From: Tannerella serpentiformis
Lineage (GTDB): Bacteria; Bacteroidota; Bacteroidia; Bacteroidales; Tannerellaceae
DNA: 64,000 bases
Reading direction: 5' to 3'
Assembly: GCF_003033925.1 (NCBI RefSeq)
Contig: NZ_CP028365.1
Coordinates: forward strand, 434,001-498,000
Shown: positions 3,978 to 62,995 of the stretch, in pieces
How the letters are laid out: each line of letters begins with the position of its first letter
How positions within the stretch are numbered: position 1 is the first letter of the stretch
Notes under the pieces: model-generated
Seen by the model: the letters and a program-made list of their open reading frames with translations, nothing else
Database searches by the model: none
What the model was told of the DNA's origin: nothing
Translations under genes and position numbers: made by a program

Positions 3978-4305
3978 GTCCTTTTTGAGCCTCAAAATTG
4001 ACCTCAAACGCTTTTGTAGTCCTTTTTGAGCCTCAAAATCGACCTCAAACGCTTTTTCAGTCCTTTTTGAGCCTCAAAATTGACCTCAAATGCTTTTGCA
4101 GTCCTTTTTGAGCCTCAAAATCGACCTCAAACGCTTTTGCAGTCCTTTTTGAGCCTCAAAATCGACCTCAAACGCTTTTGCAGTCCTTTTTGAGTCTCAA
4201 AATCGACCTCGAACGCTTTTGTAGTCCTTTTTGAGCCTCAAAATCGACCTCAAATGGTTTTGTAGCCCTTTTTGAGCCTCAAAATTGACTTCAAACGGTT
4301 TTTGG
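3978..4305. repeat. Tandem array A1, 8 copies of a 41-bp unit
   Basis: Units start with GTCC/GCCC followed by TTTTTGAGCCTC at 3978, 4019, 4060, 4101, 4142, 4183, 4224 and 4265, exactly 41 bp apart. Each unit carries the dyad TTTTGA-GCC-TCAAAA. Weaker decayed copies continue to about 4420. No gene is supported between 3895 and 5025. Confidence 0.95.
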
Positions 4306-4583
4306 CTCCTTCCGAGCTGTAAAAACACATCCAAAGCGTATTTGGCGCTTTCTCTTTATCCTCAAAATCTATCTGGAGTGTTTCCCACGACTCGAAAGTG
4401 TTTCAATATGTAGTTTGACTTATGACCGCTGTCCTAAGCGGCGGCTAAAGTATAACTGTTTTGAATAGCAACAAACTTTTCGCGAAAAAATCGTAGAAAA
4501 ATTTTTACGGAGCTGTTGTATGTGCTGATTTTCAGGGTGTAGCTGATTTTATTCTTTTGATGCAAGATCTTTCTGGCATCATT

Positions 4584-4938
4584 ATCTTCTTTTCTTCTCT
4601 TGATAGAAGAAAAGAAGCAAAAGAAGATCAAGGCATCAGGGATGCCGGCCAAGTTTGGCTTGGTACCTGTTTGGAGATCCAGCGCCAGCCAAATTTCAGG
4701 CATCCGACTTATATGAATGTATCCGGCCAAACTTCCTCGCCCTCGGCAGAGGGCTTGAGTTTCTTTTGCTTCTTTTCTTTCCTCAAGGAAAGAAAAGAAG
4801 GTCTCATTAGAGAGCCAAGTAAAGCTCCATGATCTTCTTTTCTTCTCTTGATAGAAGAAAAGAAACAAAAGAAAATCAAGGCGTCAGGGACGCCAGCCAA
4901 GTTTGACTTGATACGTATTTGGAGGTCTAGCGCCGGCC
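4584..4938. repeat. Hairpin element family, composite copy
   Basis: Two nearly identical hairpins (CTTCTTTTCTTCT / AGAAGAAAAGAAG, 13-bp arms) start about 4586 and 4834, 248 bp apart. Between them are a GCCCTCGGCAGAGGGC stem near 4738 and a third hairpin around 4774-4797 (CTTTCCTCAAGGAAAG). The sequence after each hairpin (CAAAAGAAGATCAAGGC and similar) is the complement of the sequence found before hairpins of opposite orientation, so whole elements can form long foldbacks. Confidence 0.8.
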
Positions 4939-4969
4939 TATTTCCGAACTAACGCATGGGTGGAAACAC

Positions 4970-5000
4970 AGAGCGGCAGACCAAACTGGCCTGCCGCTCT
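4970..5000 (-). terminator. Stem-loop after susD
   Basis: AGAGCGGCAG (4970-4979) pairs with CTGCCGCTCT (4991-5000), a perfect 10-bp stem 26 bp past the susD stop. On the minus strand the tail is only moderately T-rich (GTGTTTCC); on the plus strand it is followed by TTTTTG. Confidence 0.45.
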
Positions 5001-5025
5001 TTTTGTTCTCCTAAATGAGATCCAA

Positions 5026-6468: not shown

Positions 6469-6489
6469 GATTCGATCATTTTTTTGAGA

Positions 6490-9639: not shown

Positions 9640-9664
9640 GTGGATATGGATTAAAAAACGATTA

Positions 9665-9698
9665 CAAAGATACGCCCTGAAAGTATCCTTGACAAAAA
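9665..9698 (-). promoter_or_regulatory. Bacteroidetes promoter of the susCD pair
   Basis: On the minus strand TTTTTG (9698-9693) is followed after 20 bp by TATCTTTG (9672-9665), matching the -33 TTTG and -7 TAnnTTTG consensus. It lies about 26 bp before the susC start codon. Confidence 0.75.
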
Positions 9699-13458: not shown

Positions 13459-13830
13459 TTTTTGGAAATGCTTGCGGAAGTTCCGCAAATCAAAAAGAGA
13501 ACGCTTTGGCGTTTGCGGAAGTTCCGCAAATCAAAAAAGAACGTTTTGGCGCTTGCGGAAGTTCCGCAAATCAAAAAGAGAACGCTTTGGCGCTTGCGGA
13601 AGTTCCGCAAATCAAAAAGAGAACGTTTTGGCGCTTGCGGAAGTTCCGCAAATCAAAAAGAGAACGCTTTGGCGCTTGCGGAAGTTCCGCAAATCAAAAA
13701 GAGAACGTTTTGGCGCTTGCGGAAGTTCCGCAAATCAAAAAGAGAACGTTTTGGCGCTTGCGGAAGTTCCGCAAATCAAAAAGAGAACGCTTTGGCGTTT
13801 GCGGAAGTTCCGCAAGCATTCCCAAAAGCA
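13459..13830. repeat. Tandem array A2, 9 copies of a 41-bp unit, flanked by an outer inverted repeat
   Basis: The dyad TTGCGGAA-G-TTCCGCAA starts at 13472, 13513, 13553, 13594, 13635, 13676, 13717, 13758 and 13799: spacing 41 except one 40. Between dyads is ATCAAAAAGAGAACG(C/T)TTTGGCGC. The outer edges, TTTTTGGAAATGCTTGCGGAA on the left and TTCCGCAAGCATTCCCAAAAG on the right, are inverted copies of each other with few mismatches. Reading frames run through the array in several phases because 41 is not a multiple of three; none looks real. The array sits between divergent pbp1A and fabD transcripts. Confidence 0.95.
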
Positions 13831-14090
13831 CTTTGGCCGTTACAGCGCTCTATCCAAGCCATTCTTCAGGGATTAGGAGCCTCATTCTTTCGTTCAAGCT
13901 CACGTTGCAAAGATTTCTGGAAAGGGAGATCCGCCGTCGAGGGCATCCGTTTCGCTCCGATAGATCGTTTAGAGGCTATACGCTCCTGCGATCTATATCC
14001 GAAGTGCCAATCTGATCCCGCTACGCACTTTCGCCCTCGATGGACTGGCCATCGAATCGCGAACGGGTTTCCCCCTTTCCAAACTGCGCC

Positions 14091-19343: not shown

Positions 19344-19512
19344 GAAACGACTAAAAAGTAGTTTGCAGCCATTTCGGGTCACCGGAAACGGCTAAAAAGA
19401 GGTTTGCAGCCATTTCGGGTCACCAGAAACGACCAAAAAGAGGTTTGCAGCCATTTCGGGTCACCAGAAATGACTAAAAAGAGGTTTGCAGCCATTTCGG
19501 GTCACCAGAAAC
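19344..19512. repeat. Tandem array A3, 41-bp unit
   Basis: Units begin with GAAAC at 19344, 19385, 19426 and 19467 (GAAATGAC in the last), with a final start at 19508, exactly 41 bp apart. Each has GAAAC.GCT and AGCCATTTC, which can pair across a loop of about 14 bases, plus TAAAAAGAGGTTTGC. The array passes into A4 without a break in register. Confidence 0.92.
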
Positions 19513-19930
19513 AGTATTTCCAGCCGTCGAAACCGTTTCATGTCGCATGAAACGACATTTCCGACCGTCGAAGCCATTTCATGTCGCATGAAATGACATT
19601 TCCGACCGTCGAAGCCATTTTATGTCGCATGAAATGATATTTCCGACCGTCGAAGCCGTTTTATGTCGCATGAAATGACATTCCGACCGTCGAAGCCGTT
19701 TCGTGTCGCATGAAACGACATTTCCAGCCGTCGAAGCCGTTTTATGTCGCATGAAACGACATTTCCAGCCGTCGAAGCCGTTTTATGTCGCATGACGCGA
19801 CATTTCCGACCGTCGAAGCCATTTCATGTCGCATGAAACGACATTTCCGACCGTCGAAGCCATTTCATGTCGCATGAAATGGCATTTCCGACCGTCGAAG
19901 CCATTTCGTGTCGCATGACGCGACATTCAA
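19508..19930. repeat. Tandem array A4, 10 copies of a 41-bp unit
   Basis: The marker TGTCGCATG occurs at 19541, 19582, 19623, 19664, 19704, 19745, 19786, 19827, 19868 and 19909: spacing 41 except one 40. The usual dyad is TTTCATG-TCG-CATGAAA, followed by CGACATTTCCGACCGTCGAAGCC. The array fills the convergent gap between the nhaC-like and PP2C genes and ends 12 bp before the PP2C stop. Confidence 0.95.
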
Positions 19931-24162: not shown

Positions 24163-24203
24163 CTGCCAATTGCCTAAGGAAATCGCGCGCCACAAAACTT
24201 TTT
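24163..24203. repeat. Tandem array A11, left part (41-bp unit) before the insertion sequence
   Basis: One unit containing GCCAATTGCCTAAGGAAATC, GCGCGCCAC and AAAACTTTTT. It continues at 25319 beyond the insertion sequence. The last eight bases, AACTTTTT (24196-24203), are the target duplication. Confidence 0.85.
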
Positions 24204-25318
24204 GGCTTAAGGGTCAAATATGTTCCTGCGGGGTGCTATAACACACTGTGAGTCATGCATATGTTGTATCTCATAGTATTATGAGAGATCAAACTCGAAA
24301 AAAAGTACCCCCATTGTGGATCAAAAGATGTGATACGTAAAGGCACACGAAATGGAGCGTCTTATTGGTTCTGCCATAGCTGTAGACACTACTTCAGTGG
24401 TCGTTCGCGTGTAGATTCTTCAGCAGTTTATCAGTACTATGCTCAAGGTACCTACACCATTGCACAGATCGCAGAGCGATTGGGTATATCTTGTTCTACA
24501 GTAAAGCGTCGTATGAAAAATTTCCCTCTCAGTTCTACCTCTATAGCACCTCGAACTGTGGCGCTTCAAATGGATACCACATACTGGGGTAGAAACTTTG
24601 GCGTAGTACTTTTCATGGATGTAGCCACCCATCGCGTCCTTCATTTCAGATTCATTTATCGAAAGGAGCGTATAGAAGATTACTTGGCAGGAATAGCTTA
24701 TCTCAAAAGACAAGGAATACGGGTGAGCGGAGTCATTTCTGATGGACTCTCTGGACTGAGAAAAGCCTTAGCACCAATCCCTTACCAATACTGTCAATTC
24801 CATCAAATACAGCGTATCAGACAGCTGCTCACCAATCATCCAAAACATCCGGCCTCTATTGCGCTGAAAGAGATCGGCCTACAGCTTACACAATCCGACA
24901 AAAAACAGTTTGCTGGTTTGTTAGCACAATGGCATGAGCAGTGGAAGGCATACTTGGAAGAGAAAACATTCTCAGAAAATGGAGCGTCTTTCACTTATAC
25001 CCATCGGCGTTTAAGGGCCGCTTATTTTAGCTTAACAAGGCACTTAGATATTCTCTATACCTACCAATGCTTTCCGGAGTTAGGCCTACCAAACACCAAT
25101 AATGCATTGGAGTCACTGAATGCTTCCCTGAAGACGAAATTGCGCTTGCATCGTGGAATCTCTCGGGAAAGAAAGCAAAGACTTATTCAGGCCATTATAA
25201 TAGCTTACAACCCCTGTCCTATAAACGAGAGTTGAACCATCACAGGAACATATTTGACCCTTAATGAGACTCACAGTGTGTTATAGCACTCCGCAGGAAC
25301 ATATTTGACCCTTAAGCC
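24204..25318 (+). mobile_element. Complete insertion sequence, 1,115 bp, 51-bp inverted ends, 8-bp target duplication
   Basis: The left end 24204-24254 (starting GGCTTAAGGGTCAAATATGT) and the right end 25268-25318 are inverted copies with one mismatch in 51 bp. Flanking AACTTTTT at 24196-24203 and 25319-25326 is an 8-bp direct duplication. An extra copy of the end motif CAGGAACATATTTGACCCTTA lies just inside the right end (about 25247-25267). It carries one transposase gene. The 8-bp duplication and the transposase motifs fit the IS256/Mutator group or a related unclassified family. It is inserted inside a 41-bp tandem array. Confidence 0.93.
24330..25235 (+). CDS. DDE transposase, Mutator/IS256-related, N-terminus in doubt
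   Basis: Protein of 301 residues from a GTG. A zinc-knuckle pair (FCHSCRHYF and an upstream CG.. segment) and a helix-turn-helix (IAQIAERLGISCSTVKRRM, about 46-64) precede the catalytic core: LQMDTTYW (first Asp), VISDGLSGLRKAL (second Asp), the CQFHQIQRIRQ block typical of MULE/IS256 enzymes, and NNALESLNASLK (Glu). The in-frame sequence extends upstream of 24330 (K-Y-P-H-C-G-S-K-D-V) but has no start before a stop at 24282. A plausible ATG at 24281 is in a different frame, next to an A7 run. So either a one-base indel has damaged the start or frameshifting is used. Confidence 0.85.
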   Translation: MIRKGTRNGASYWFCHSCRHYFSGRSRVDSSAVYQYYAQGTYTIAQIAERLGISCSTVKRRMKNFPLSSTSIAPRTVALQMDTTYWGRNFGVVLFMDVATHRVLHFRFIYRKERIEDYLAGIAYLKRQGIRVSGVISDGLSGLRKALAPIPYQYCQFHQIQRIRQLLTNHPKHPASIALKEIGLQLTQSDKKQFAGLLAQWHEQWKAYLEEKTFSENGASFTYTHRRLRAAYFSLTRHLDILYTYQCFPELGLPNTNNALESLNASLKTKLRLHRGISRERKQRLIQAIIIAYNPCPINES

Positions 25319-25445
25319 AACTTTTTCGGCTCATTTCCTCAGGAAATCGCCCGCCACAAACTTTTTCGGCCCATTTCCTCAGGAAATCGCCCGCCACAAA
25401 ACTTTTTCAGCCAATTGCCTGAGGAAATCGCGCGAAAAAGGCCGG
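25319..25445. repeat. Tandem array A11, right part (40/41-bp unit)
   Basis: Continuation of the array after the insertion sequence, with three further units carrying ATTTCCTCAGGAAAT (dyad ATTTCCT-C-AGGAAAT) or the variant AATTGCCTGAGGAAAT, then CGCCCGCCACAAA(A)CTTTTTC. Spacings are 40 and 41. Removing the insertion sequence and one AACTTTTT restores a full unit. Confidence 0.9.
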
Positions 25446-31829: not shown

Positions 31830-32140
31830 GTCACTTTTTATACCTGAGAATATGTCTTAGCTATAAAACAGTCGCCAGTTTATAGTGATAAAATCTATTG
31901 GGTTATAAAAAGTCACTCGTTTATTCTGAATAAAAATGATTGGTATCTATTTGGTGACTTTTTTATACCCAATAAATTCTCTTGGATATAAAAGAGCAAC
32001 AATTTATTAGTCTACGAGATTTATCCAGTATAAAAAGGCCACCATTTAATTCCTGATCATTTTTGCTCCATGATAAAAAGTCACTTTTTCATTTTTGAGT
32101 AAAGCTGTTCAGTATAAAAAAGTGACTTGCTATTTATCAG
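31830..32140. repeat. Degenerate tandem array A6, about 41-bp period, AT-rich
   Basis: A core of the type TATAAAAAGTCAC / GTCACTTTTTATA recurs with starts near 31830, 31871, 31912, 31953, 31994, 32037, 32080 and 32122 (spacings 41, 41, 41, 41, about 43, 43, 42). Copies differ strongly in the remainder, so this looks like an old array. It lies between the divergent glgP and Smr-domain genes. From 32141 to 32355 I see no gene, only leader DNA of the next transcript. Confidence 0.75.
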
Positions 32141-37149: not shown

Positions 37150-37390
37150 CTCCCCTGTACATCTACAGAAAGCCCACCCACGCGTGGTTTTAATCTCCGT
37201 ACCCCTACGGAAAGCCCACCCACGCGTGGTTTTAATCTCCGTACCCCTACGGAAAGCCCACCCACGTGTGGTTTTAATCTCCGTACCCCTACAGAAAGCC
37301 CACCCACGCGTGGTTTTAATCTCTGTACCCCTACGGAAAGCCCACCCACGCGTGGTTTTGATCTCCGTAGGGGTGCAGACCATCCTCCCC
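37150..37390. repeat. Tandem array A7, 42-bp unit, 5-6 copies
   Basis: The marker GCCCACCCACGCGTGG (one copy has GTGTGG) occurs at 37172, 37214, 37256, 37298 and 37340, exactly 42 bp apart. Each unit has two dyads: CCACGCGTGG and CCGTA-CCCC-TACGG. The array lies in the convergent gap after the HhH gene. Frames of 14-residue repeats are a by-product of the 42-bp period. The rest of the gap to 37601 holds only the terminator. Confidence 0.95.
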
Positions 37391-37601: not shown

Positions 37602-39896
37602 TTATTGTACCAATACCTTCTGCGTTGTGCCGTCGCTGAGGACAACGAGGTAGAGACCGGCAGCGAGAGGCACCGTCTTGTCGCCTTGCACCGTGGCCTG
37701 CTTTACCAGCACACCCGAAGCAGAGTAGATGCGCACCGTCGTCTCCTTCGGGGCGTGGATGCGAACCGCACCGCTGTTCGCCCATACGGACGGCTGATCT
37801 ACCAGTGTATTGGCCACCGTCTTGGTGAACTCCAGCGTCAGGTCTTGCATCACGCGACGAATCACATATTCGTATTCGCCATCTGCGTTCCGCGTACCCG
37901 TCAGCACTTCCACCGTGCGACCGTCGATCAGACGCTTAGCCGTGACCGTCATCGGTTCGCCGGCATACTTGACGCGGAAGGTGAAGTTCTTCTGTGAAGG
38001 TATCGAGCTGTATCCAACTCCCGGCGAAACGACCGTCACCCCTTCCACCGTCGGGATAAACACCGAGCGCTGATGAACGGGAGGTGCATCCCGCTTGACA
38101 TAGAAGCAGTAGCTCTCATCACGGCACCAGTCGGGGACAAGTTGCTTGTCGGCCAGTTCTTTACCTAATACCGTATTCAGATTTCTTCTCAGTATGGCAT
38201 CTAAAGCCTGATCAGTTCCTCGCGGGTAATTAATTCTGCTCACAAAATTTTCCAATGGGTGACCGGAAGGAAGAGGAAAATTGTCCATGAGCAAGTTGTC
38301 TAATACCTGCGAAAATTCACCTCCCTCTGGGTTGTATTTATCTTCATCGCTAAGGGGGCCCCAAGTTCCAGAACCAATACCCATAAAGGAACCATCCTCA
38401 TAATATTCTATGATAGCATTCTGAATGGTAGCCGACTGACTTTCGAACAATGATTTGTAATATGGAATACCCATCTTCCTTCTATAAGCTATCTCTTCAG
38501 TACCTCCATTCAGGAGATTGGTAAGACTATTAAGGGTATCGCCGGTATAGTAAAATCTATTCGGGTCCATATAAGTTTGCTTTAGATCTGCTGATCGCCC
38601 GACTTTTGAATCGAGTTGTCTCAGACAGACGCGTACACTGTCGTCTTGTAGCAAGTCTCTCTCCACATCGGTCAGGGGCGAATCAGCCGGATGCCAGTTC
38701 CAACCTCCATCAAGGCTACGTACCATATACTTTGTGTCTGTACCGCTCACAAAGCCGTAATTCAAACGCATCGTGTCGCGATAATGCACTCGCGAGCGAA
38801 TAATATTCGAAGCGAATTTTGGCTGGTTGTAGATCTTGAATCGAACGGTGAACGTATCGGATGGCTCACCGGTCTCCTCATTGTAAAAAGGATGGGGGAA
38901 TAACGCCGGATGGCTATTACCCACCCCCGGGTATCTCCAAGCATTAGTGGGAGGTACCACCCAATCCGAGGCATCGTTCGCCAGCGTATCGGGGCCGTTA
39001 CCCGTCTTCTTTCTGACAAAGTACATCTTCAATACCGCATCGCCATCCTCCTTGATCCGGGTAAACTGTATCGGATCACACATGATTAAAGTGTGTACTG
39101 CAGAATCCCTCGGAAGCAGGATTCTCGTGATGGGTTTTTGAGCCCGGCCTCCCGTTAAGCAAGAATCTTCCAATACGCCTCCGTATTCAAAAACAAGCTC
39201 TAAGTCACGAGCTGCCTTTATCATTTTCATGCTAGCTAGTTTTAGCCCGCCAAAAACGTTCTCGTTCTTATTCCAGCAAATAATCGTCTCTCTTAGATTG
39301 TGCTCTTCGAGTGTATCCGTATTATACACACAGCCTACGTAAAAAACGTTGTCTTTATAGGCTAGTATATCATCATCAATATTCCATTTCGGAAGCGAGA
39401 CTGCTGCCGCTCGAAGGTTATAACGTGCTGCACCTGTTTCGGCAGCCCGCTTTTTTCTTTCGCGTTCAGCTATTCCTCTCTCGATCTGGGCCAGATCCTT
39501 CACTTCTCTTCGCGCATTATTATAATCGGGAGAGCCATTGTTGTCTTTATCAATAGCCCATACAGCATACAACGTCCTATCGGATTGTATATCGATAGCA
39601 TCTCCCACTCGATAGAGCAACGTCTCAATTCCCATCTCTGCAGAGGAAGAAGTCACCACAGGCAATTTACGATCGGACCATCCGAGCAACATATAGCCAC
39701 GTATCCCGTAGCCATTGTGAGTCAACCGGTGCATGCCATTGGCTACCGTCTCCGTCCTTTGTGCACCCGCACGAGGCTGGGCCCCCGGGCGCCAAGTCAC
39801 ATCGGCTGCACGCAGCGAGCCGATATTGAGGGCGGACAGCAACCCGAAGGTTGCTATCATAGCCCACAAACAATTCTTTTTACTTGTTCGTATCAT
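37602..39896 (-). CDS. Secreted surface protein with T9SS C-terminal sorting domain
   Basis: Protein of 764 residues with a signal peptide (ending SLRAAD). Residues about 33-130 form one InlB/Flg_new-like module (VTWRPGAQPRAGAQRTETVA, GYMLLGWSDRKLPVVTS, LYAVWAIDKDNNGSPDYNN). A long unique region follows with no recognised domain. The last 75 residues are a T9SS type A sorting domain (VRIYSASGVLVKQATVQGDK ... GLYLVVLSDGTTQKVLVQ) directing export and attachment to surface lipopolysaccharide. The N-terminal module closely matches the last module of the giant protein encoded just upstream (23 bp gap), so the pair share ancestry in that segment. Likely third gene of an operon. Confidence 0.88.
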   Translation of the reverse strand: MIRTSKKNCLWAMIATFGLLSALNIGSLRAADVTWRPGAQPRAGAQRTETVANGMHRLTHNGYGIRGYMLLGWSDRKLPVVTSSSAEMGIETLLYRVGDAIDIQSDRTLYAVWAIDKDNNGSPDYNNARREVKDLAQIERGIAERERKKRAAETGAARYNLRAAAVSLPKWNIDDDILAYKDNVFYVGCVYNTDTLEEHNLRETIICWNKNENVFGGLKLASMKMIKAARDLELVFEYGGVLEDSCLTGGRAQKPITRILLPRDSAVHTLIMCDPIQFTRIKEDGDAVLKMYFVRKKTGNGPDTLANDASDWVVPPTNAWRYPGVGNSHPALFPHPFYNEETGEPSDTFTVRFKIYNQPKFASNIIRSRVHYRDTMRLNYGFVSGTDTKYMVRSLDGGWNWHPADSPLTDVERDLLQDDSVRVCLRQLDSKVGRSADLKQTYMDPNRFYYTGDTLNSLTNLLNGGTEEIAYRRKMGIPYYKSLFESQSATIQNAIIEYYEDGSFMGIGSGTWGPLSDEDKYNPEGGEFSQVLDNLLMDNFPLPSGHPLENFVSRINYPRGTDQALDAILRRNLNTVLGKELADKQLVPDWCRDESYCFYVKRDAPPVHQRSVFIPTVEGVTVVSPGVGYSSIPSQKNFTFRVKYAGEPMTVTAKRLIDGRTVEVLTGTRNADGEYEYVIRRVMQDLTLEFTKTVANTLVDQPSVWANSGAVRIHAPKETTVRIYSASGVLVKQATVQGDKTVPLAAGLYLVVLSDGTTQKVLVQ

Positions 39897-39919
39897 ATTC
39901 CATTGTAATTTGGTTTGGT

Positions 39920-42900
39920 TTACTTCACTATCACTTTGTGCGTCTTGCCGTCGATGACTACCACATAGAAGCCTTCGGCGAGCGGTTCGCGTGTCTGCCC
40001 TTCGGCTACGTCGATACGCTTGTACAACGCACCGCTACGGGTGTAGACCTCTGCACGTGTACGACGGTCGGACTCGATATAGAGCACACCCTCATGAGCC
40101 CATACGCGGATGGCGGCTGCTTCAAGCTGGGGCGCTGTCTGATCTGTCTGATCCTCTGACAAGATTCTCAATTGCGAGCGCTTCTCAACCACTGCATTAT
40201 TGTAATCAGGTGAACCATTGTTGTCCTTATCGATCGCCCATACAGCGAAGAACTTCTTATCCTCCTGAATGTCGTACTGACTTCCGAGCCTATGGAAATT
40301 GGATAGGCTATTCTCCGCTGCCTGACTTGTCACCACGGGCTTCTTTTGTTCAGACCATCCGAGCAGAACATAACCACGTATGGCAAAGCCGTTGGCCTTG
40401 AACTGAAGGGTGCCTTTCGATACGGGCTCAGTCCTCTGCTTACCGGCCCGAGGCTGAGCTCCCGGATTCCATGTAACAAACACTTCGTCATAGTCAGGGA
40501 TACCATTCTGGTTGGCATCCTTAGCCCATACGGCATGGAAGGTCAGATCAGATGTGATCCTAATGGCTGTATCTGGCTTCATCAAACCGCTTGGCTCATC
40601 GGCCTTGGCTGTGATCAGACTTGAGGTGCTAAAGCTCCAACCAATAAAGGCAGCCTTTGTACGCGTCAAGGTGCCTTTGCCCTTCACGGTAACCATCATG
40701 CTGTCATTGTAGCGATTGTTATCCACAGGGGCCGTACCACCGTCATTGCCGTTACCAACATAGGTCACGCCTTTCTGCAGGTAGTCGGGCACATTGTCGC
40801 TCTGACCGTTCGGACCCGTCTTATCCTCACCCCATACGGCGTATAGGTTTGCGAGTGCGGATGAGTAAGACACTTGCTGATTCGGCTGCTTCATGTCGGC
40901 CGGTACAGCGGATGCAGTTGTCACTACAGATACACTTGAAGTGTGCCATCCGATAAATACCGTCTGGTTAAGCGTCAAGTCGCCCTTATCCTTGATGGTC
41001 ACTTGGTCGTCATTATTATAGAGGTTGGCATCCTGCGGAGCCGTGCCACTGGCGCCATTAGCATGATAGGTCACGCCATCTTGGCTATAGTCTGGCTTGC
41101 CGTCTGGTGTGCCGCTCGGACCGGTCTTATCTACTGCCCATACCGCATAGAGCGTCGTATCGGCCGTGATGGCGAAGGTTCCACCTGGCTGCTTCAGATC
41201 GGTTATTGCACTTTGTGCGGCCGACGTCTCAACCAAAGGATGCACGCCGAAGCTCCAGCCGATGAATACGGCTTGATTACGGGTCAGCTGTTCTTTGTCT
41301 TTCACCGTTACGGTTGCGTTGTTGTCATAGCGGTTGGCATCTGTCGGCGCTGTGCCTGTGCCACCGTTACCGTCGTAGGTCACACCCATCTGTAGGTAGT
41401 CGGGCACATCATCGCTCTGTCCAGCTGGGCCGGTTTCGTCCTTACCCCATACGGCGAAGAGCGTCGTGTCGGTGGTGATGGTGAACGTCTCGTGTTCCTT
41501 CTTCAGGTCGGTCACTGCATCGTGCTCGGCTTTCGTGGTCAGCAGCGACTTCTTACCGAAGCTCCAGCCAACAAACGCGGCCTTATCGCGGGTCAGATCA
41601 TTCTTGCCCAGGACGGTCACTGCGTCATTGCTGTTATAGCGTTTGTCATCCGTCGGTGCTGTACCGGTAGAGTTCTCGTTGCCGTCGTAGGTAACGCCCT
41701 TCTGCAGGTAGTCGGGGATATTATCCGAGTTGCCGTTCGGGCCGGTCTTGTCCTGACCCCAGATAGCGTAGAGCTTATTGGTCGTAGACGAGTAATTGAA
41801 CTTGTCTCCGGATTGCTTCAGACCTGTCGGCACATCGGCAGCCTTCGTAACCAAGGCGTGGCTATTGAACAGCCAGCCAATAAACACGGCCTCCGTGTGT
41901 GCCAAGGTGCCTTTATCCTTCGCGGTCACTTCGTCATTGTCGTTATAGAGGCTGTTGTCCGTCGGAGCGTCGCCTGTGCCACCGTTAGCATAGTAGGTCA
42001 CGCCGTCCTGGCTATAGTCCGGCTTACCGTCAGGCGTACCGTTCGGGCCGGTCTTGTCGATTGCCCATACAGCGTAAAGCGTCGTATCGCTTGTGCTTGC
42101 GAACGTAGCACCCTTCTTCTTCAGGTCGGCAGGTTCATCTGCGGCCTTCGTGATTACAGGTTTCTGTGTGAAGCTCCAGCCGATAAATACAGCCTCGGTG
42201 CGTGCCAGTGAACCAGAATCTTTCACCGTTACGTTCTCACCATTGTTATAGCGGTTAGCGTCCACGGGAGCCGCGCCGCTGCTCTGATTGTTGCCGTTGT
42301 AGGTGACACCGTTTTGCAGGTAGTCAGCGATACCGTCAGAGGTCCCGTTCGGGCCAGTCTTATCCTCTCCCCAGAGTGCGAAGAGGGTCTTCTGGTTAGC
42401 CGAGTACTTGAAGGTGGCATCCTTCTGGTAGATCGTTGCCGGTACATCAGCCTTCTTCGTGATCAGAGGCTTCTGCTCGAAGAGCCAGCCGAGGAAGACG
42501 GCATCCGTACGAACCAAGCTACCCTTATCGAGCACTTTCACATCGTCGTTGTCATTGTAAAGCTTCGAATCTACCGGAGCCGTACCACCGGTATTGTCGT
42601 TGCCCTTGTAGGTCACGCCGGCTTGGCTGTAGTCAGGCTTACCGTCGGGGGTACCGCCCGGGCCCGTCTTGTCGATTGCCCATACGGCAAAGAGCGTCGT
42701 ATCGGCCGTGATGTTGAAGTGGGCACCGGTCTTCTTCAGGTCTGCGGGTTCATCCGCGGCCTGCGTGATCAGACCCTTTTGCGCGAAACTCCAGCCAAGG
42801 AACACGGCCTCGGTGCGAACCATCGTGCCGGAATCTTTTACAGCTACTGACGTGCCGCTGTTATAGCGGTTGTTATCTACCGGAGCGTCGCCACTGGTTT

Positions 42901-45394
42901 GGTTGTTACCGTTGTAGGTGAGACCCTTTTGCAGATAGTCGGGGATACCGTCAGAGGTTCCGTTCGGGCCGGTCTTGTCCTCACCCCATACGGCGAAGAG
43001 TGTCGTGTCCTGGGTAATGGTGAAGTTCTGGCCTTTCGTCTTCAGGTCGCTTGGCACCTCGCTGGCCTTCTTGATCAGCTCTTTCTGCGTGAAGCTCCAG
43101 CCGACGAATGCTGCACCCGTACGAACGAGGCTGCCGGAATCTTTCACCTCAACCTGCGTATTGGCGTTGTAGAGGTTATCATCCGTCGGAGCGGCACCGG
43201 TTCCACCGTTACCGTTGTAGGTCACCCCGTTTTGCAGGTAGTCGGGCACATTGTCACCGTTGCCATTGGGACCTTTCTTATCGACGGCCCATGTGGCGTA
43301 AAGCGTCGTATCGGTCTTGATGGTGAACTTGTCGTTCTCCTTCTTCAGGTCGGTCGGCTCGTCGCTCTTGGCGGTGATGACGCCTTGCTTCTGCGTAAAG
43401 CTCCAACCGATGAACGTAGCATCCGTACGCTTGAGGTCGCCCAAGCCCTTTACGGTCACTTCGGCATCCTCGACATAGGGACTCTTCTCGTCCGTCGGCA
43501 CCGTGCCACTGTTACTGCCGTTTCCGTTGTAGGTCACATTGAGCGTAGCGTTGCAGCCGTCTACCACGGTTACGGTGTCACTCATCGGGGAGGTGCACTT
43601 ACCATACGAGCCAATTACTGAGTATTGACCCGCTTTATCCGACGTAACCGTGTATGTATTCTCTATGGCTCCTAAAATAGGATTGCCATTATAGTACCAC
43701 TGATAACGTGTCGGACCACTTTCAGCTGTCAACACCGTATTTTTTGCAGGTGGGCAGATAAAACGGTCACCCGTAATCTTCAATGGTTTGGGATCTACTA
43801 CTGTTATCGTAGATTTTATCGTGAGCTGCTTTCCATCTTCTCCGATAACGACCAATTTGATCTCTTGAGGGGTCTTCAATGGGAATGACGACTTCGTCCA
43901 TTCGATCTTATCTTGAGCGGTGGGCTCTTCGACTCCGTTGACATACCATTTTATATGTCCGGGATTCGCACTTAGCGGGAAATTCAATTCAGCCTTGAAT
44001 TTGAACGAGCCATTGCAGTACGTCTGCCCATTCGCATTTTGGAAATGGACATCATTGATATAGAATGAAGGGTTCAGCTGCCGTAGGGATGATGCTGCCA
44101 TGTAGTAGTAGGATATGAAAGATCCAAAGCCATATCCATAAACAATAAGGCCCTCTTCGTTGTCAAACAGATAAGAGGCCGAAGACTCCGTAAGCTGTAG
44201 GTTGTAGAATGACATACCGGAGCTCGGATTGTCATACCACGTACCGTTTTGACTACTCAAAAGCATCGTCTGTCCAGCCCCAATCTTAATGGTCGTTTTC
44301 TCTTTTGTCGCGGTAGGGGTCACGATCAATGCATAATGAGACGACAACCTATCTGAACCAAATGGTGCAATCAAGGCTGTTTGCACAGACTGCTCAACAG
44401 GAGGAATCCACACAAGCGATTCATCACCATTACCAACCGCACCATTATTGTAATTCATTCCCACCATGTAGGAGCAGACTTGCACTGGCTTATCACTCTC
44501 GATATAGCAGCCCTTATTAGCTAATGAAATCTGAAGCTCTACGAACTCTCCGGCGTTAAGTGTATAAGTCTGTTGAGCAGGTGTAGACGTTTTAGGGAGT
44601 ACCGCCCCGGTCTGCGTAACCTTGGTGTTATTATGAGACGCAACAATCCTAATCAATTCAACACCTCTCAAGCTGACCGGTACAATAAACTTGGTACCCC
44701 AAGTTTCGGTGGAGGTCAATTGCTGGAAGATATTGTCACCACCACCATCTATCTGATGATAATTGTGGGCTGTGAAGTAGGCTATCGGATTGTTTGAGGT
44801 GATGTGACGTCCACTCAAATCTTGGCTCATGTTATCAGCTCGTCTGAAATAGACTTGCCCTTTTGAAAGGTGTGCCACATCATTTCCATTCTCGTAGACG
44901 ATCGTGTTATCCTGAGTGGCTACAACCATGTAGTTGTCAGTAAAATTACTATTAACAGCAGCTCGCCCCAAATGATAATAATCGCTTCCCAGTGTGGGGA
45001 CAGGCAACAAATTCGTCGCATCAGCCAATGCCGCATAGGTATTAAAGGCATACACCGTCACGGGAATATCATTGTCCGTTTGGATTCGGATAGACTTGCT
45101 GCTTATCCTCGTTTCAAGGGAGTAGGAGGCAGCTCTATCCTCTTGAGTCAGGGTGTAATTGAACGCGTCATTATCTGAGATTGAGAAGGGAACAACCTTG
45201 TTGTTCTCCGTAAACGTAATCCGACCCGTTACCGCTTGTTTGGCTACGATTCGCAACTGCAGATATACGCCATTCGATGGGGCGTTTGCATTATTACCGA
45301 ACGTAATCCAGAAATCAGACCCTCGCGTCTCGACTTGCGCACCAAGAGAGCACGCAAATACCAAGAGGAGGAATAGTGTAATTATTCGCTTCAT
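39920..45394 (-). CDS. Giant repeat surface protein (1,824 residues), IgGFc-binding-like N-domain, InlB-type repeats, T9SS sorting domain
   Basis: Signal peptide MKRIITLFLLLVFACSLGAQ. The N-terminal 400 or so residues resemble the IgGFc-binding N-domain found in Bacteroidetes surface proteins (ETRGSDFWITFGNNANAP). An Ig/PKD-like domain follows (QWYYNGNPILGA). Then come ten InlB/Listeria-Bacteroides repeats of about 100 residues (GVTYNGNGGTG..APTD, FIGWSFTQK, TTLYAVWAIDKTGP), each closed by an Asp-rich loop such as DKTGPNGTSDGIPDYLQK that should bind calcium, and one divergent eleventh module. The final 75 residues are a T9SS sorting domain (AEVYTRSGALYKRIDVAEGQ, VVVIDGKTHKVIVK). It is probably an adhesin, which is inference. 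It starts 8 bp after the small upstream gene. Confidence 0.9.
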   Translation of the reverse strand: MKRIITLFLLLVFACSLGAQVETRGSDFWITFGNNANAPSNGVYLQLRIVAKQAVTGRITFTENNKVVPFSISDNDAFNYTLTQEDRAASYSLETRISSKSIRIQTDNDIPVTVYAFNTYAALADATNLLPVPTLGSDYYHLGRAAVNSNFTDNYMVVATQDNTIVYENGNDVAHLSKGQVYFRRADNMSQDLSGRHITSNNPIAYFTAHNYHQIDGGGDNIFQQLTSTETWGTKFIVPVSLRGVELIRIVASHNNTKVTQTGAVLPKTSTPAQQTYTLNAGEFVELQISLANKGCYIESDKPVQVCSYMVGMNYNNGAVGNGDESLVWIPPVEQSVQTALIAPFGSDRLSSHYALIVTPTATKEKTTIKIGAGQTMLLSSQNGTWYDNPSSGMSFYNLQLTESSASYLFDNEEGLIVYGYGFGSFISYYYMAASSLRQLNPSFYINDVHFQNANGQTYCNGSFKFKAELNFPLSANPGHIKWYVNGVEEPTAQDKIEWTKSSFPLKTPQEIKLVVIGEDGKQLTIKSTITVVDPKPLKITGDRFICPPAKNTVLTAESGPTRYQWYYNGNPILGAIENTYTVTSDKAGQYSVIGSYGKCTSPMSDTVTVVDGCNATLNVTYNGNGSNSGTVPTDEKSPYVEDAEVTVKGLGDLKRTDATFIGWSFTQKQGVITAKSDEPTDLKKENDKFTIKTDTTLYATWAVDKKGPNGNGDNVPDYLQNGVTYNGNGGTGAAPTDDNLYNANTQVEVKDSGSLVRTGAAFVGWSFTQKELIKKASEVPSDLKTKGQNFTITQDTTLFAVWGEDKTGPNGTSDGIPDYLQKGLTYNGNNQTSGDAPVDNNRYNSGTSVAVKDSGTMVRTEAVFLGWSFAQKGLITQAADEPADLKKTGAHFNITADTTLFAVWAIDKTGPGGTPDGKPDYSQAGVTYKGNDNTGGTAPVDSKLYNDNDDVKVLDKGSLVRTDAVFLGWLFEQKPLITKKADVPATIYQKDATFKYSANQKTLFALWGEDKTGPNGTSDGIADYLQNGVTYNGNNQSSGAAPVDANRYNNGENVTVKDSGSLARTEAVFIGWSFTQKPVITKAADEPADLKKKGATFASTSDTTLYAVWAIDKTGPNGTPDGKPDYSQDGVTYYANGGTGDAPTDNSLYNDNDEVTAKDKGTLAHTEAVFIGWLFNSHALVTKAADVPTGLKQSGDKFNYSSTTNKLYAIWGQDKTGPNGNSDNIPDYLQKGVTYDGNENSTGTAPTDDKRYNSNDAVTVLGKNDLTRDKAAFVGWSFGKKSLLTTKAEHDAVTDLKKEHETFTITTDTTLFAVWGKDETGPAGQSDDVPDYLQMGVTYDGNGGTGTAPTDANRYDNNATVTVKDKEQLTRNQAVFIGWSFGVHPLVETSAAQSAITDLKQPGGTFAITADTTLYAVWAVDKTGPSGTPDGKPDYSQDGVTYHANGASGTAPQDANLYNNDDQVTIKDKGDLTLNQTVFIGWHTSSVSVVTTASAVPADMKQPNQQVSYSSALANLYAVWGEDKTGPNGQSDNVPDYLQKGVTYVGNGNDGGTAPVDNNRYNDSMMVTVKGKGTLTRTKAAFIGWSFSTSSLITAKADEPSGLMKPDTAIRITSDLTFHAVWAKDANQNGIPDYDEVFVTWNPGAQPRAGKQRTEPVSKGTLQFKANGFAIRGYVLLGWSEQKKPVVTSQAAENSLSNFHRLGSQYDIQEDKKFFAVWAIDKDNNGSPDYNNAVVEKRSQLRILSEDQTDQTAPQLEAAAIRVWAHEGVLYIESDRRTRAEVYTRSGALYKRIDVAEGQTREPLAEGFYVVVIDGKTHKVIVK

Positions 45395-47798: not shown

Positions 47799-47837
47799 TG
47801 GGGGGTCTATGCTATACATATAATAATGGGAGAAGAT

Positions 47838-48288
47838 GAGCCTCAGATTGCATTTTACAAGCGTGCAAAATCCAAAATGAGCCTCAGATTGCATTTTACA
47901 AGCGTGTAAAGTCTAAAATGAGCCTCAGATTGCATTTTACAAGCGTGCAAAGTCCAAAATGAGGCTCAGATTGCATTTTACAAGCGTGCAAAGCCTGAAA
48001 TGAGGCTCAGATTGCATTTTACAAGCGTGCAAAGTCCGAAATGAGCCTCAGATTGGATTTTACAAGCATGTAAAGCCTGAAATGAGCCTCAGATTGGATT
48101 TTACAAGCGTGCAAAGTCCAAAATGAGGCTCGGATTGCATTTTACAAGCGTGCAAAGTCCGAAATGAGCCTCAGATTGCATTTTACAAGCGTGCAAAGTC
48201 CAAAATGAGCCTCAGATTGCATTTTGCAAGCGTGCAAAGTCCAAAATGAGGCTCAGATTGGATTTCACACGCTTGCAAAGCTCTTGGC
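47838..48288. repeat. Tandem array A8, 11 copies of a 41-bp unit
   Basis: Units starting GAGCCTC or GAGGCTC are at 47838, 47879, 47920, 47961, 48002, 48043, 48084, 48125, 48166, 48207 and 48248, all exactly 41 bp apart. The unit is close to GAGCCTCAGATTGCATTTTA + CAAGCGTGCAAAGTCCAAAAT. Dyads TTTACA-AGCG-TGTAAA and TTTGCA-AGCG-TGCAAA occur in different copies, as if both arms changed together. The array separates aroB and alaS and ends about 20 bp before the alaS stop. Confidence 0.96.
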
Positions 48289-53385: not shown

Positions 53386-53390
53386 CAGCT

Positions 53391-58375: not shown

Positions 58376-58406
58376 TTGATCTATCTTCTTCAATTTGTAA
58401 TCGGCG

Positions 58407-58414
58407 CAAAAATA
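58407..58414 (-). promoter_or_regulatory. -7 promoter box of the Omp28-like gene
   Basis: TATTTTTG followed by CGCCG on the minus strand, about 32 bp before the start codon. Confidence 0.5.
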
Positions 58415-58818
58415 GACTTTCCGGGTTCCCTGCCTTGCCGTTTACGGCCCGTCCGCGGATGAATGGAGCTCCTCGGAGTGGCTTCTCTGGCGGGTTGGGG
58501 CATCCGAAGCGCAAAAAGAGATGAAAAGGCAGGGAGGGCTGGTGGAGAGCAGGCGCCAGTCTGTGAAATCGTCCATAATGGCCAAAGCACCTGACGAAAA
58601 GTTGTGAAATCATCCGTGGTGCCGGGTGCGTAGCGCTTCGGCTGTAGTCCAAACGGCTTCCGATCCGGTGATCGTAGACAAACCGACAGCCCCATCGATA
58701 CCTATCGGCGCCGCTGTCTGCTGTATATCTATGAGCTTGTCTATGAGCTTGGCGAGGTCGTCCGTCGGCTTGTTGCTTCGGGGGGGCGCGTCGCTGAACA
58801 TCCGGGGGCGCAAACGCT

Positions 58819-59070
58819 GGCAGGCGGCCTTCCAAAGTGGTCGGAGTGTCTGGTGACTCTGGCAGGCCGCCTGCCGGGACTATCGGACACTCCGGTGACG
58901 TTGGCAGGCCGCCTGACAGGACTACCAAACACTCCGGTGATGGTGGCAGGCCGCCTGACAGGGCTATCGGAGACTCCGGTAATGGTGGCAGGCCGCCTGC
59001 CAGCGTCACCGAACACTCCGACGATGTTGGCAGGCGGCCTGCCAGAGTTGCCAAGTCGCACATCGAGGCC
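58819..59070. repeat. Tandem array A9, 6 copies of a 42-bp unit
   Basis: The marker GGCAGG occurs at 58819, 58861, 58903, 58945, 58987 and 59029, exactly 42 bp apart. Units read like GGCAGGCCGCCTGACAGGAC + TACCAAACACTCCGGTGATGGT. The dyad GCAGG-CCG-CCTGC is present in several copies. It lies between the divergent Omp28-like and ABC genes. From 58415 to 58818 I see no gene or repeat, although there are open frames on both strands. Confidence 0.96.
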
Positions 59071-59210
59071 GCCTCAGGAGCCGAAAGCTGTTGGCAGGAC
59101 ACGATAGGGAGGACTGATCCCCCCGACCGAAGTCCGGGCCTATATCTTCAAATCGCCCGTAAGGCCCAAAGGATTACGGATCCAGCACCGCTCTGATTGG
59201 ATCCGGCCGT

Positions 59211-59218
59211 TACCTTTG
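59211..59218 (+). promoter_or_regulatory. -7 promoter box of the ABC importer operon
   Basis: TACCTTTG followed by GCGCC, 131 bp before the start of the binding-protein gene. This leaves a leader of about 120 bases. I find no cobalamin B12-box-like sequence in it. Confidence 0.45.
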
Positions 59219-59348
59219 GCGCCGATTTTTCCGGAGGCGGAGGCTATACCTATTTATATAGGCATCGACCGAATGGGCATGGCCGATGCGCGTACCCCCG
59301 GAAGGGGGCGGCCAGAAGCGAGAAGATGACATATACTACAATAGAAGA

Positions 59349-60524: not shown

Positions 60525-61561
60525 TGAAGCGCCATACAGCACTTATTCTGACGCTCATCGCCGCCTCCATCGCGCTCTTCTTCGTGCTCAACTTGGTGCT
60601 CGGATCGGTGGCCATCCCACTGCAATCGATCGTGCATATCCTCTTCGGCACGGGCGAGGAGTCGGAGGTGTGGCGCAACATCGTGTGGAAGTCGCGCGTG
60701 CCCCAGTCACTGACGGCCTTAGTGGCGGGCGCGGGGTTGGCCGTGAGCGGCCTGCAAATGCAGACCGTCTTTCGCAATCCACTGGCCGGGCCATCGGTGC
60801 TCGGCATCAGCTCCGGGGCCAGCCTCGGCGTGGCGCTCGTCATCCTGCTCTCGGGCAGCGTGGGCGGCGTAGCGCTGAGCAAGCTCGGCTACATCGGCGA
60901 ACTGGCGCTCACGATCGCGGCCACCGTCGGCTCGCTGTCCGTCATGGCGCTCATCGTCTTCGTCTCGCAGAAGGTGCGGGGCAGCGTCACGCTGCTCATC
61001 ATCGGCGTCATGATCGGCTATGTGGCCAACGCCATCATCGGCATGCTGAAGTATTTCAGCGTCGAGGAGGACATCCGCGCCTACGTCATCTGGGGCCTGG
61101 GCAGCTTCGCCCGCGTGTCGGGCAATCAGATGACGCTCTTCGTCGCCATCATGGCCGTGCTACTGCCGCTCTCACTGCTGCTGATCAAGACGCTCAACCT
61201 GCTGCTCCTCGGCGAGGGCTACGCCCGCAACCTCGGCCTGAACATCAAGCGGGCGCGCCTGAGCGTCATCTCCTGCGCCGGCCTCCTGACGGCCATTGTG
61301 ACGGCTTACTGCGGGCCGGTGATCTTCCTCGGGCTGGCTGTGCCGCACCTCTGCCGCGGCCTCCTGCGCACGTCCGACCACCGCATCCTTATGCCCGCCT
61401 CCATCCTCACCGGCGCCTCGCTGGCCTTGGTCTGCAACCTCATCGCCCGCATGCCCGGCTTCGAGGGCGCCCTGCCCGTCAACTCCGTCACGGCGCTCAT
61501 CGGCGCACCTATCGTGGTCTACGTGCTTTTCAGTAAACGAAGAAATGAAGTGAACGAATGA
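60524..61561 (+). CDS. ABC importer permease, FecCD family
   Basis: Protein of 345 residues with nine to ten membrane segments. It carries the FecCD hallmarks VWKSRVPQSLTALVAGAGLA, LQMQTVFRNPLAGPSVLGIS, YVIWGLGSFARVSGNQ and GPVIFLGLAVPHLCRGLL. It forms the homodimeric channel for siderophore/haem/B12 import, with coupling-helix segments contacting the ATPase. Its stop overlaps the ATPase start (ATGA). Confidence 0.93.
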   Translation: MKRHTALILTLIAASIALFFVLNLVLGSVAIPLQSIVHILFGTGEESEVWRNIVWKSRVPQSLTALVAGAGLAVSGLQMQTVFRNPLAGPSVLGISSGASLGVALVILLSGSVGGVALSKLGYIGELALTIAATVGSLSVMALIVFVSQKVRGSVTLLIIGVMIGYVANAIIGMLKYFSVEEDIRAYVIWGLGSFARVSGNQMTLFVAIMAVLLPLSLLLIKTLNLLLLGEGYARNLGLNIKRARLSVISCAGLLTAIVTAYCGPVIFLGLAVPHLCRGLLRTSDHRILMPASILTGASLALVCNLIARMPGFEGALPVNSVTALIGAPIVVYVLFSKRRNEVNE

Positions 61562-62568
61562 AAGAAACGACTATCCGCCTCCGCGACCTCAGCATCGGCT
61601 ACCCCGACAAGCACAACACGAAGCGCGTGGCCGAACACCTCAACGCCTCGATCCACAGCGGCGAATTGACGTGCCTCCTCGGCACCAATGGCGTGGGCAA
61701 ATCCACCCTGCTGCGCACCCTCTCGGCCTTCCAACCCCCGCTCGGCGGCACGATCGACCTGCTCGACCGTCCGCTCTCCACGTATGATGACCGGCAGTTG
61801 GCCACCGTCATCGGCGTCGTCCTGACCGAAAAGAGCGACATCCGCAACATGACGGTCGAGGAGCTGGTCGGCCTCGGGCGCAGTCCCTACACCGGCTTTT
61901 GGGGGACACTCAAGGAGGGCGATCGCAAGATCGTGCACGAGGCCATCGCCCGCGTGCGCATCGAGCCGCTCACCCAGCGCATGGTGCACACCCTCAGCGA
62001 TGGCGAGCGGCAGAAGGTGATGATCGCCAAGGCGCTGGCGCAGGAGACGCCCATCATCTTCCTCGACGAGCCCACGGCCTTCCTCGACTTCCCCAGCAAG
62101 GTGGAGGTCATGCAGCTGCTCCACAACCTTACGCACACGCTCCAGAAGACCGTCTTCATGTCCACCCACGACCTCGAGCTGGCGCTCCAAATCGCGGACA
62201 AGATCTGGCTCATGGACCGCACGAACGGCATCGCCATCGGTACGCCTGAGGACCTCTCCTTAGAAGGCAAACTCAGCAGTTTCTTCTCCCGCAAAGGCAT
62301 CACCTACGACACCGAAACGGGCTTCTTCCGCATCGACACGGACTACCGCCGCGAGATCCACCTCCACGGCCACGGCAGCCGTTACGCGATGGTGCGCAAA
62401 GCCCTGCAACGAAACGGTATCCGTGCCGACCGCCACGTCGCTGACGACTCCCTCCACATTGACACCACCGGCTCCGCAGGCGATCCCTTCGTCATCCACC
62501 GCGCAGACGGTAGCACCCAGTCCGCCACCAACATCGAGGCGCTGCTGTCGCTGATTGCGGATCAATGA
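61558..62568 (+). CDS. ABC importer ATPase with C-terminal extension
   Basis: Protein of 336 residues. Walker A is GTNGVGKSTLL, the signature LSDGERQKVMIAKAL, Walker B PIIFLDEPTAFLD, and the switch His is in MSTHDLELA. It powers the permease above. FecE/BtuD-type ATPases are about 250-270 residues; this one has about 80 more after the core (HLHGHGSRYAMVRKALQRNG, ADDSLHIDTTGSAGDPFVI), a small alpha/beta domain with no clear match that may be regulatory. It is the last gene of the operon; a 42-bp array starts 39 bp after the stop. Confidence 0.92.
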   Translation: MKETTIRLRDLSIGYPDKHNTKRVAEHLNASIHSGELTCLLGTNGVGKSTLLRTLSAFQPPLGGTIDLLDRPLSTYDDRQLATVIGVVLTEKSDIRNMTVEELVGLGRSPYTGFWGTLKEGDRKIVHEAIARVRIEPLTQRMVHTLSDGERQKVMIAKALAQETPIIFLDEPTAFLDFPSKVEVMQLLHNLTHTLQKTVFMSTHDLELALQIADKIWLMDRTNGIAIGTPEDLSLEGKLSSFFSRKGITYDTETGFFRIDTDYRREIHLHGHGSRYAMVRKALQRNGIRADRHVADDSLHIDTTGSAGDPFVIHRADGSTQSATNIEALLSLIADQ

Positions 62569-62606
62569 CGAGCCAGAAATACCCAGAGACGCCCTTACCA
62601 AGTTCC

Positions 62607-62995
62607 GTCCCCTGAGGGGATGAGGGCGTACCCGTCCGGAAAGTCCCCGTCCCCTGAGGGGATGGGAGCTTTTTTTGCGGTGACACCCCCGTCCCCTGAG
62701 GGGATGGGAGCTTTTTTTGCGGTGACACCCCCGTCCCCTGAGGGGATGAGGCGTAATTTCAAGATGACACCCCTATCCCCTGAGGGGATGAGGCGTAATT
62801 TCAGGATGACGCCCCTATCCCCTGAGGGGGTGAGGCGTAATTTCAGGATGAAGCCCCTATCCCCTGAGGGGGTGAGGTGTAATTTCAGGATAACACCCCT
62901 ATCCCCTCAAGGGGATGAGGTGTAATTTCAGGATAACGCCCCTATCCCCCGAGGGAATGAGGTGTAATTTCAGGATAACGCCCTGTCTCCTCTTC
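62607..62995. repeat. Tandem array A10, 10 copies of a 42-bp unit
   Basis: The marker (G/A)TCCCC begins at 62607, 62649, 62691, 62733, 62775, 62817, 62859, 62901, 62944 and (diverged) 62985: spacings 42 seven times, then 43 and 41. The dyad is CCCC-TGA-GGGG; the copy at 62901 reads CCCCTCAAGGGG, longer but still symmetric. The half between dyads changes from GGGAGCTTTTTTTGCGG to GCGTAATTTCAGGATGAC without breaking register. The array separates the ABC operon from feoAB. 62996-63081 shows only C-rich DNA. Confidence 0.95.

Follow-up and report, generated by a model that had tools for sequence, protein, structure and literature searches.

The stretch analyzed here, referred to as the window, comprises 64,000 nucleotides of the Tannerella serpentiformis genome (NCBI RefSeq assembly GCF_003033925.1, contig NZ_CP028365.1, positions 434,001 to 498,000), and the gaps between its genes carry a series of tandem arrays whose units are all 40 to 42 bp long. 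An original prediction, made from the letters of the window alone, had placed these arrays, and Tandem Repeats Finder (TRF) recovered them. Some belong to families of short elements with terminal inverted repeats (TIRs) that resemble miniature inverted-repeat transposable elements (MITEs), named MITE-A and MITE-B here, and one is interrupted by an insertion sequence (IS). The features are as follows, in window positions.

3976..4302, no strand: 41-bp array (TRF 41 x 8.0; best lag 41, identity 0.93), with a related array at 1531.7 kb of the same genome
13389..13906, no strand: MITE-A element of 518 bp, in the order degenerate left TIR, leader, 41-bp array, tail, right TIR
13470..13815, no strand: 41-bp array forming the MITE-A core (TRF 41 x 8.5; dyad TTGCGGAAGTTCCGCAA)
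13812..13893, no strand: part of the MITE-A tail that underlies most nucleotide matches within the genome
19344..19512, no strand: 41-bp array (TRF 41 x 4.1)
19516..19927, no strand: 41-bp array (TRF 41 x 10.1) immediately after 19344..19512, with a junction dyad spacing of 41
24163..24203, no strand: lone unit of the 25319 array, separated from it by the IS
24204..25318, plus strand: IS of ~1.1 kb (bounds approximate) with inverted ends GGCTTAAGGGTCAAATATG and a transposase open reading frame (ORF) at 24330-25235
25319..25431, no strand: 40-bp array (TRF 40 x 2.8), of the unit family found in the core of MITE-A copy L266
31585..31771, no strand: 42-bp array (TRF 42 x 4.5)
31830..32130, no strand: degenerate 41-42-bp array, from the lag identity test
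37163..37369, no strand: 42-bp array of the MITE-B unit type (TRF 42 x 4.9), with homology at 11 other loci
47836..48280, no strand: 41-bp array (TRF 41 x 10.9) in the 509-bp alaS-aroB gap
58852..59045, no strand: 42-bp array (TRF 42 x 4.6)
62608..62983, no strand: 42-bp array that also has a higher-order form of 84 bp (TRF 62650-62983, 42 x 7.9)

Across ten window arrays, the identity at the best lag is 0.75-0.95 and the units are contiguous. The degenerate array near 31830 was confirmed against shuffled sequence, with a lag-42 identity of 0.48, above the value of 0.37 that marks the 95% limit in shuffles. At 24163 there is a single unit of the 25319 array, split off by the ~1.1-kb IS, whose transposase has a weak Pfam match to Transposase_mut that lies below the cut-off. 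Clustered regularly interspaced short palindromic repeats (CRISPR) were ruled out for the window arrays, in which the units are contiguous and no unique spacers separate the repeats.

The pattern is real, genome-wide, and unusual. The genome (G000; genomes are given as G numbers and loci as L numbers) is a single contig of 3,013,500 bases in which the window is G000:C1:434001-498000. Together with 40 stretches of 20 kb, the window formed an 864-kb sample covering 28.7% of the genome, in which genes were called with a purpose-made dicodon gene caller and arrays with TRF. This sample contains 140 tandem arrays with a period of 40-43 bp, spanning 38,287 bp; they account for 4.4% of all sampled bases and for ~17% of the non-coding ones, and simple proportion gives ~490 arrays for the genome. 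The arrays had been described as intergenic, and nearly all are (136/140); with only 4/140 inside called genes, an origin as coding repeats was rejected. The sharp peak at 41-42 bp anticipated for the period histogram was found with and without TRF. The intergenic counts are 7, 58, 61, and 10 at periods 40, 41, 42, and 43, and 136 of the 145 intergenic arrays with periods of 24-60 bp lie at 40-43 (nine outside), the remaining intergenic periods being mainly 20-23 (20 arrays) and multiples of 41-43, with nine arrays below 20. In the TRF-free lag count, non-coding DNA gave 506 hits per 10 kb at lag 41 and 438 at lag 42, while the neighboring lags gave 72 (lag 40), 57 (lag 43), 9.9 (lag 44), and 0 (lags 37-39 and 45). 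Chance was excluded as a source of the arrays, as three dinucleotide shuffles of the sample produced nine arrays of period at least 15 and none at 40-43, compared to the 140 real ones. TRF reported 0% indels in 93/136 of the intergenic 40-43 arrays. About half of the gaps of at least 250 bp contain an array (102/207), array density per 10 kb of gap is 5.9 for same-strand, 8.2 for divergent, and 7.4 for convergent gaps, and unit GC content shows no dependence on flank GC content (Spearman 0.13, p 0.14). A direct repeat of 126 bp (3 x 42) in 2.5 copies was also noted at window positions 2345-2664.

The 140 unit consensuses, compared circularly in both orientations with a clustering score of 18 that exceeds the maximum of 16 among 4000 shuffled pairs, gave 68 clusters, the largest with 20 members and 42 of them singletons. 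Many unrelated units therefore do share one length, as the original prediction had it. Its further statement that sequences differ completely between arrays is true of most of the window, where the ten TRF arrays form nine clusters, but not of arrays 13470 and 19344, which share one; unrelated unit sequences are the rule, though not without exception. Between units there is also a weak excess of partial similarity, with a score of at least 8 in 47% of comparisons versus 32% for shuffled units.

The units were also predicted to carry a dyad at a kept spacing, and for most of them dyad scores, a second dyad, and compensatory changes support this. The best dyad per unit has a mean score of 6.20 versus 4.27 for shuffled units, and a score of at least 6 is reached by 64% versus 9.5% (140 units), although ~32/140 units score below 5. 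When the core was kept and the rest of the unit shuffled, a second dyad, on average the weaker one, stood out at an offset of precisely half a unit with a z of 13.4, the other 20 offsets ranging from -3.8 to 1.6. Where the dyad is strong (78/136 arrays), the paired fraction reaches 0.88-1.00 at distances of 2-6 bp from its center and again 0.49-0.60 at 16-18 bp, near the second center, compared to an expected 0.25. Compensatory double changes between copies within an array numbered 39 in 52 usable arrays, versus 18.0 ± 3.4 in 200 permutations, none of which exceeded 27. Array edges tend to sit just outside the main dyad (69 arrays; Rayleigh p ~2e-4 for the end phase and ~0.014 for the start), and at junctions between adjacent arrays 7/9 dyad spacings come close to a multiple of 20.6. 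Since two of these seven spacings equal 0, from overlapping calls, a register held across junctions is only suggestive. In the array flanks of the sample, the word CGCAAAAGTA occurs in a single orientation relative to the arrays (7 blocks vs 0). Its reverse resembles the Bacteroidetes promoter element TAnnTTTG, directed away from the array, and for this reason some arrays may lie upstream of promoters.

The array at 13470-13815 is the core of a MITE-A element, a family with the TIR ACGTGAGTTCGA and copies that end in AACGTGAGTTCGA...TCGAACTCACGTT. Its right flank (13806-13900) has 21 matches in the genome at 20 loci, the window included, two of which are 33 bases or shorter, and 17/20 loci have a good MITE-A tail (score of at least 45); among 117 other genomes of the bacterial family the tail (query 13816-13900) found no match. 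The 12 elements measured are 129-710 bp long, too short for a transposase gene. Tandem repeats lie between leader and tail, as in the PgRS and BrickBuilt elements of Porphyromonas gingivalis, and the cores are graded, from copies without an array (L274, 129 bp; L276, 165 bp) through approximately one unit (L265), two dyads 41 bp apart (L268), and three dyads (L267 and L269) to the 8.5 units of the window copy and the 13.1 copies of L270. The TIR occurs at 73 sites, versus 3 for the reversed pattern, and a DDE_Tnp_1 domain lies inside each of two inward-facing pairs of IS size, with spacings of 1024 and 1025 bp. Flanks of ten copies showed an exact 4-bp repeat, a putative target-site duplication, in 3/10 and a 5-bp repeat in one. 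Membership in the IS5-type MITEs, with ends that match known or resident IS, was found for the MITE-A family only.

Between the same MITE-A ends lie units of 40, 41, and 42 bp with differing dyads. L266 has the 40-bp unit type of window array 25319, and the window copy at 13470 has TTGCGGAAGTTCCGCAA; the tails of these two copies are 0.89 identical, while their units are 0.39 identical, which is the shuffled level. Over the 78 pairs of 13 copies that have both a tail and a called unit, mean identity is 0.795 for tails versus 0.537 for units (shuffled 0.40). Dyads of the form TTGC..GCAA come in 22 distinct versions, and in the 19 of length 17 that were tested, the inner arms pair at 63/76 positions versus 37.8 ± 4.4 after re-dealing, with a maximum of 53 in 1000.

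Array 37163 represents MITE-B. Its homology at 11 other loci is 75-96% identical and extends little, if at all, past the array itself (query 148-391, array 174-380). The MITE-B TIR, AGGGCAACCGCATCAA, was found at 37 sites with at most three mismatches, versus 9 for the reversed pattern, and three TIR pairs are present in the sample, two enclosing 42-bp arrays of the 37163 unit type and one forming an empty 185-bp element. Among similar array pairs at different loci, 54/67 share less than 20 bp beyond the array edges. A common length without common sequence had been held to argue against copying; that argument is only partly right and not supported here, given that one MITE family carries strongly diverged units between the same ends, those of L266 being unrelated, and that similar arrays are dispersed across many loci. 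Beside array 37163 lie two long minus-strand ORFs (window 37602-45394), the first with a type IX secretion system (T9SS) type A sorting domain. Separately, a dispersed palindromic repeat, GTAGGGGCGTATTGCATACGCCC, was seen at window ~2160-2300 and in several other stretches of the genome (e.g., L009 and L022), and some members of the largest shared-flank cluster of the arrays contain it (26 flanks, 4 shown).

The alaS-aroB gap, measured with start codons assumed, is 509 bp in T. serpentiformis, with its 10.9-copy array, and 3 bp in T. forsythia, 3 bp in G011, 19 bp in G021, and 29 bp in G048. Of six other loci of the genus that were read, four have alaS directly before aroB; G033 and G057 do not have that order. 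Since the T. forsythia gap is 3 bp, there is no unit-length local sequence in the gap to copy, and birth of the array by local duplication is contradicted at this junction, the one read base by base, where a unit-length single-copy precursor is absent. Distances between blocks that match T. forsythia, which are approximate, are ~2.24 kb at L015 versus ~1.10 kb in T. forsythia, and ~370 bp at L157 versus 262 in T. forsythia.

Elsewhere in the family, another genus (g16; 13 loci, 234 kb) has intergenic arrays of 41 (five), 42 (eight), and 43 bp (one), 11/14 of them in G032. In the rest of the family (27 loci, 522 kb), the counts are 13 at 21, 4 at 22, 4 at 23, and 1 at 41, leaving out L048 (T. 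forsythia ATCC 43037, NZ_JUET01000083.1) given its overlap with two further loci of that species. For the order Bacteroidales, the sample (L044-L123 and L200-L239; 119 loci, 2.25 Mb) contains 133 intergenic arrays of period at least 10, and the near-duplicate pair L058/L060 alters no count. Arrays of 21-23 bp are the commonest intergenic tandem repeats there, at 67/133 (26, 33, and 8 at 21, 22, and 23); five lie at 41 and one at 42, four between 24 and 40, none at 43-51, 50 at 10-20, and six above 51. In the lag spectrum of the order, a 22-44-66-88 ladder coexists with a 41-82 ladder, and for this reason the longer class is not merely a doubling of the shorter, which was rejected also in that 41.5 is not 2 x 22. 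Outside T. serpentiformis as well, the main dyad surpasses that of shuffled units, with a score of at least 6 in 7/14 g16 arrays and 3/6 order arrays where ~1 in 10 is expected. Outside the order, at 200 kb each, other orders of the class had 6, other classes of the phylum 4, and Escherichia coli K-12 3 intergenic arrays, with no peak but in numbers too few to exclude one. In G032 (L187:4058-6286), there are also CRISPR-like arrays of 65-66 bp with the common part GCTGTAATTGAACCATTTGGAATTGAAAC and a differing remainder.

Bacterial interspersed mosaic elements (BIMEs) are grouped with repetitive extragenic palindromic (REP) sequences as short, palindromic, intergenic, multi-copy repeats, and their hallmarks include a GTAG or CGTC tag and a RAYT gene. 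The preference of REP/BIME-type repeats for downstream, convergent positions is absent from the array densities by gap type in the 864-kb sample. The REPs in the available text of PMC3733652 are likewise short palindromes in many intergenic copies, but they have shared tags and lie mainly downstream of genes, whereas here there are many unit sequences and no such bias. Closer relatives are described in the available text of PMC4596501, from which the nearest known systems are the 41-nt PgRS and the 23-nt BrickBuilt elements of P. gingivalis. The 464/PgRS MITE has internal 41-nt tandem direct repeats and inverted ends common to the IS5 family; its TIR, GAGACTGTTGCA, is unlike that of MITE-A, and it is given as ~10-20 copies, compared to ~490 extrapolated arrays and dozens of unit families here (PMC4596501). 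BrickBuilt shares with MITE-A the succession of leader, tandem minisatellite, and tail between inverted ends and is always intergenic, but has a 23-nt unit with one consensus from 19 copies (PMC4596501); the constant repeat sequence documented for its copies is not found in MITE-A, where units diverge strongly and much further than tails (0.537 vs 0.795). The MITE239/MITE700/ISPg3 group of P. gingivalis, which belongs with the IS5 family, has nearly the TIR of MITE-A (ACGTGAGTTCGA in MITE239, ACGTCAGTTCGA in ISPg3), but MITE239 and MITE700 are described there as seemingly without mini- or microsatellites (PMC4596501). The carriers of the arrays, where known, are thus of a known kind, MITE-borne minisatellites. 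An announcement of 41-42-bp arrays in Tannerella, or of an order-wide length class, was not found in the literature covered, which takes in few subscription journals, and the available text of PMC5771137 has nothing on unit length.

Several explanations for the common length were weighed. The arrays could descend from a few old MITEs with no constraint on length, substitutions outpacing indels and being spread by homogenization so that length lags behind sequence. The same MITE-A ends holding 40-, 41-, and 42-bp units with different dyads, the dispersal of array families across loci, and the partial similarity of units (47% vs 32%) are consistent with this, yet between clusters the units are barely above shuffles while 136/145 arrays with periods of 24-60 stay at 40-43, 93/136 have no indels by TRF, the 41-42 class is also present in other families of the order, and PgRS has 41-nt repeats but other ends in the available text of PMC4596501. 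Because the class recurs in another genus and across the order (six arrays in 2.25 Mb), plain descent from one element would be insufficient unless that element is very old, and we consider descent alone possible but improbable. A length ruler, i.e., a machine that copies a fixed local span so that each array is born de novo at the same length, would account for a sharp peak across many unrelated units and for the discrete 21-23 and 41-42 peaks of the order sample; it is difficult to reconcile with a 3-bp T. forsythia gap that offers nothing of unit length to copy, with similar arrays reappearing at distant loci, and with MITE-A ends enclosing some arrays, and it appears very unlikely.

Alternatively, the arrays may be phased binding sites selected for a dimeric nucleoid protein, transposition having merely supplied them. 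Dyads with compensatory arms, two per unit and ~20.6 bp apart on average, edges just outside the dyad in 69 arrays, the register kept across 7/9 junctions, and an array density that differs little with gap orientation (convergent, divergent, or same-strand) all point in this direction. However, 68 unit clusters are incompatible with one sequence-specific site, the ~32/140 units with a dyad score below 5 do not fit, the junction test is small and includes the two overlapping calls scored as 0, and there is no candidate protein, and we therefore doubt this explanation. Units acting as RNA hairpins, either terminators or mRNA stabilizers, would fit the 7-8-bp stems, some of which adjoin A/T tracts. 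RNA pairing predicts an excess of G.T mismatches, but in co-directional gaps the gene-strand stem mismatches are 37 G.T vs 65 A.C (by array, 8 with more G.T, 13 with more A.C, and 12 equal), with no G.U excess, and divergent gaps, which are without gene ends, match convergent gaps in array density (8.2 vs 7.4 per 10 kb). Mismatch types and gap context both disfavor this reading, and we regard it as highly improbable.

Based on the data presented above, we consider it on balance probable that the arrays are the expanded cores of short, non-autonomous MITE-like elements, together with descendants whose ends have decayed, and that the ~41.5-bp spacing is both inherited and constrained. Observed directly are the transposition-type ends, the graded copy number between similar ends, the covarying dyads, and a long array separating operon genes that are close neighbors in relatives. 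Whole units would multiply by slippage or unequal exchange, the dyad centers would be rewritten jointly, by hairpin-templated repair or selection, and the inherited spacing may be further held by a required relative position of neighboring dyads. Alternate dyads would lie ~two helical turns apart and like dyads four, and a putative dimeric protein or hairpin-handling enzyme would read the array at the DNA level. Where no ends can be recognized, the arrays may represent old elements that have lost theirs through decay, or may have been relocated by recombination.

A number of observations weigh against this interpretation. MITE origin is an extrapolation for arrays without recognizable ends: only 6/120 array blocks of the sample have a MITE-A TIR site and 7 share leader or tail, and inverted flank matches of at least 14 occur in 10/110 blocks, where 1.3 would be expected, with some of these matches representing other repeats rather than element ends. 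One MITE explaining all arrays is not supported, most blocks being without recognizable ends. Both resident IS copies that were found have in-frame stops, which counts against inferring present mobility. As unit identity (0.537) exceeds the shuffled level (0.40), most MITE-A units are diverged relatives rather than unrelated, and only 3/78 pairs combine tails of at least 0.85 with units below 0.55. A strong dyad is lacking in 58/136 arrays. The second dyad at the half-unit position does not reach significance either in g16 (1.07 vs 0.85, sd of mean 0.21) or among the six arrays of the order sample (0.67 vs 0.93), and the order-wide 21-23 arrays show no more than a weak dyad excess. Moreover, placement of dyads on one face of the DNA does not account for the rarity of units of three (31-32) and five turns (52-53). 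One helical pitch also fits the two length classes poorly (41.5/4 = 10.4 and ~21.7/2 = 10.9), so that the helical-turn reading is a lead, not a result.

More broadly, one may speculate, although we think it rather unlikely, that across the Bacteroidales intergenic repeats longer than ~20 bp are quantized at ~21-23 and 41-42 bp whatever their sequence, through a DNA-level machine or protein filament reading dyad modules of ~20.5 bp, and that this has run away in the source Tannerella, reaching ~1/6 of the non-coding DNA with unrelated MITEs as carriers. Arrays of this kind would be expected to hamper short-read assembly and might be useful as strain markers. The finding also connects P. gingivalis, with its 41- and 22/23-nt repeats, to the two length peaks of the order sample. 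Inside transposons whose ends provide an internal clock, these minisatellites change in sequence but retain their unit length and dyad architecture, which makes it testable whether selection or replication accounts for the spacing of the palindromes.

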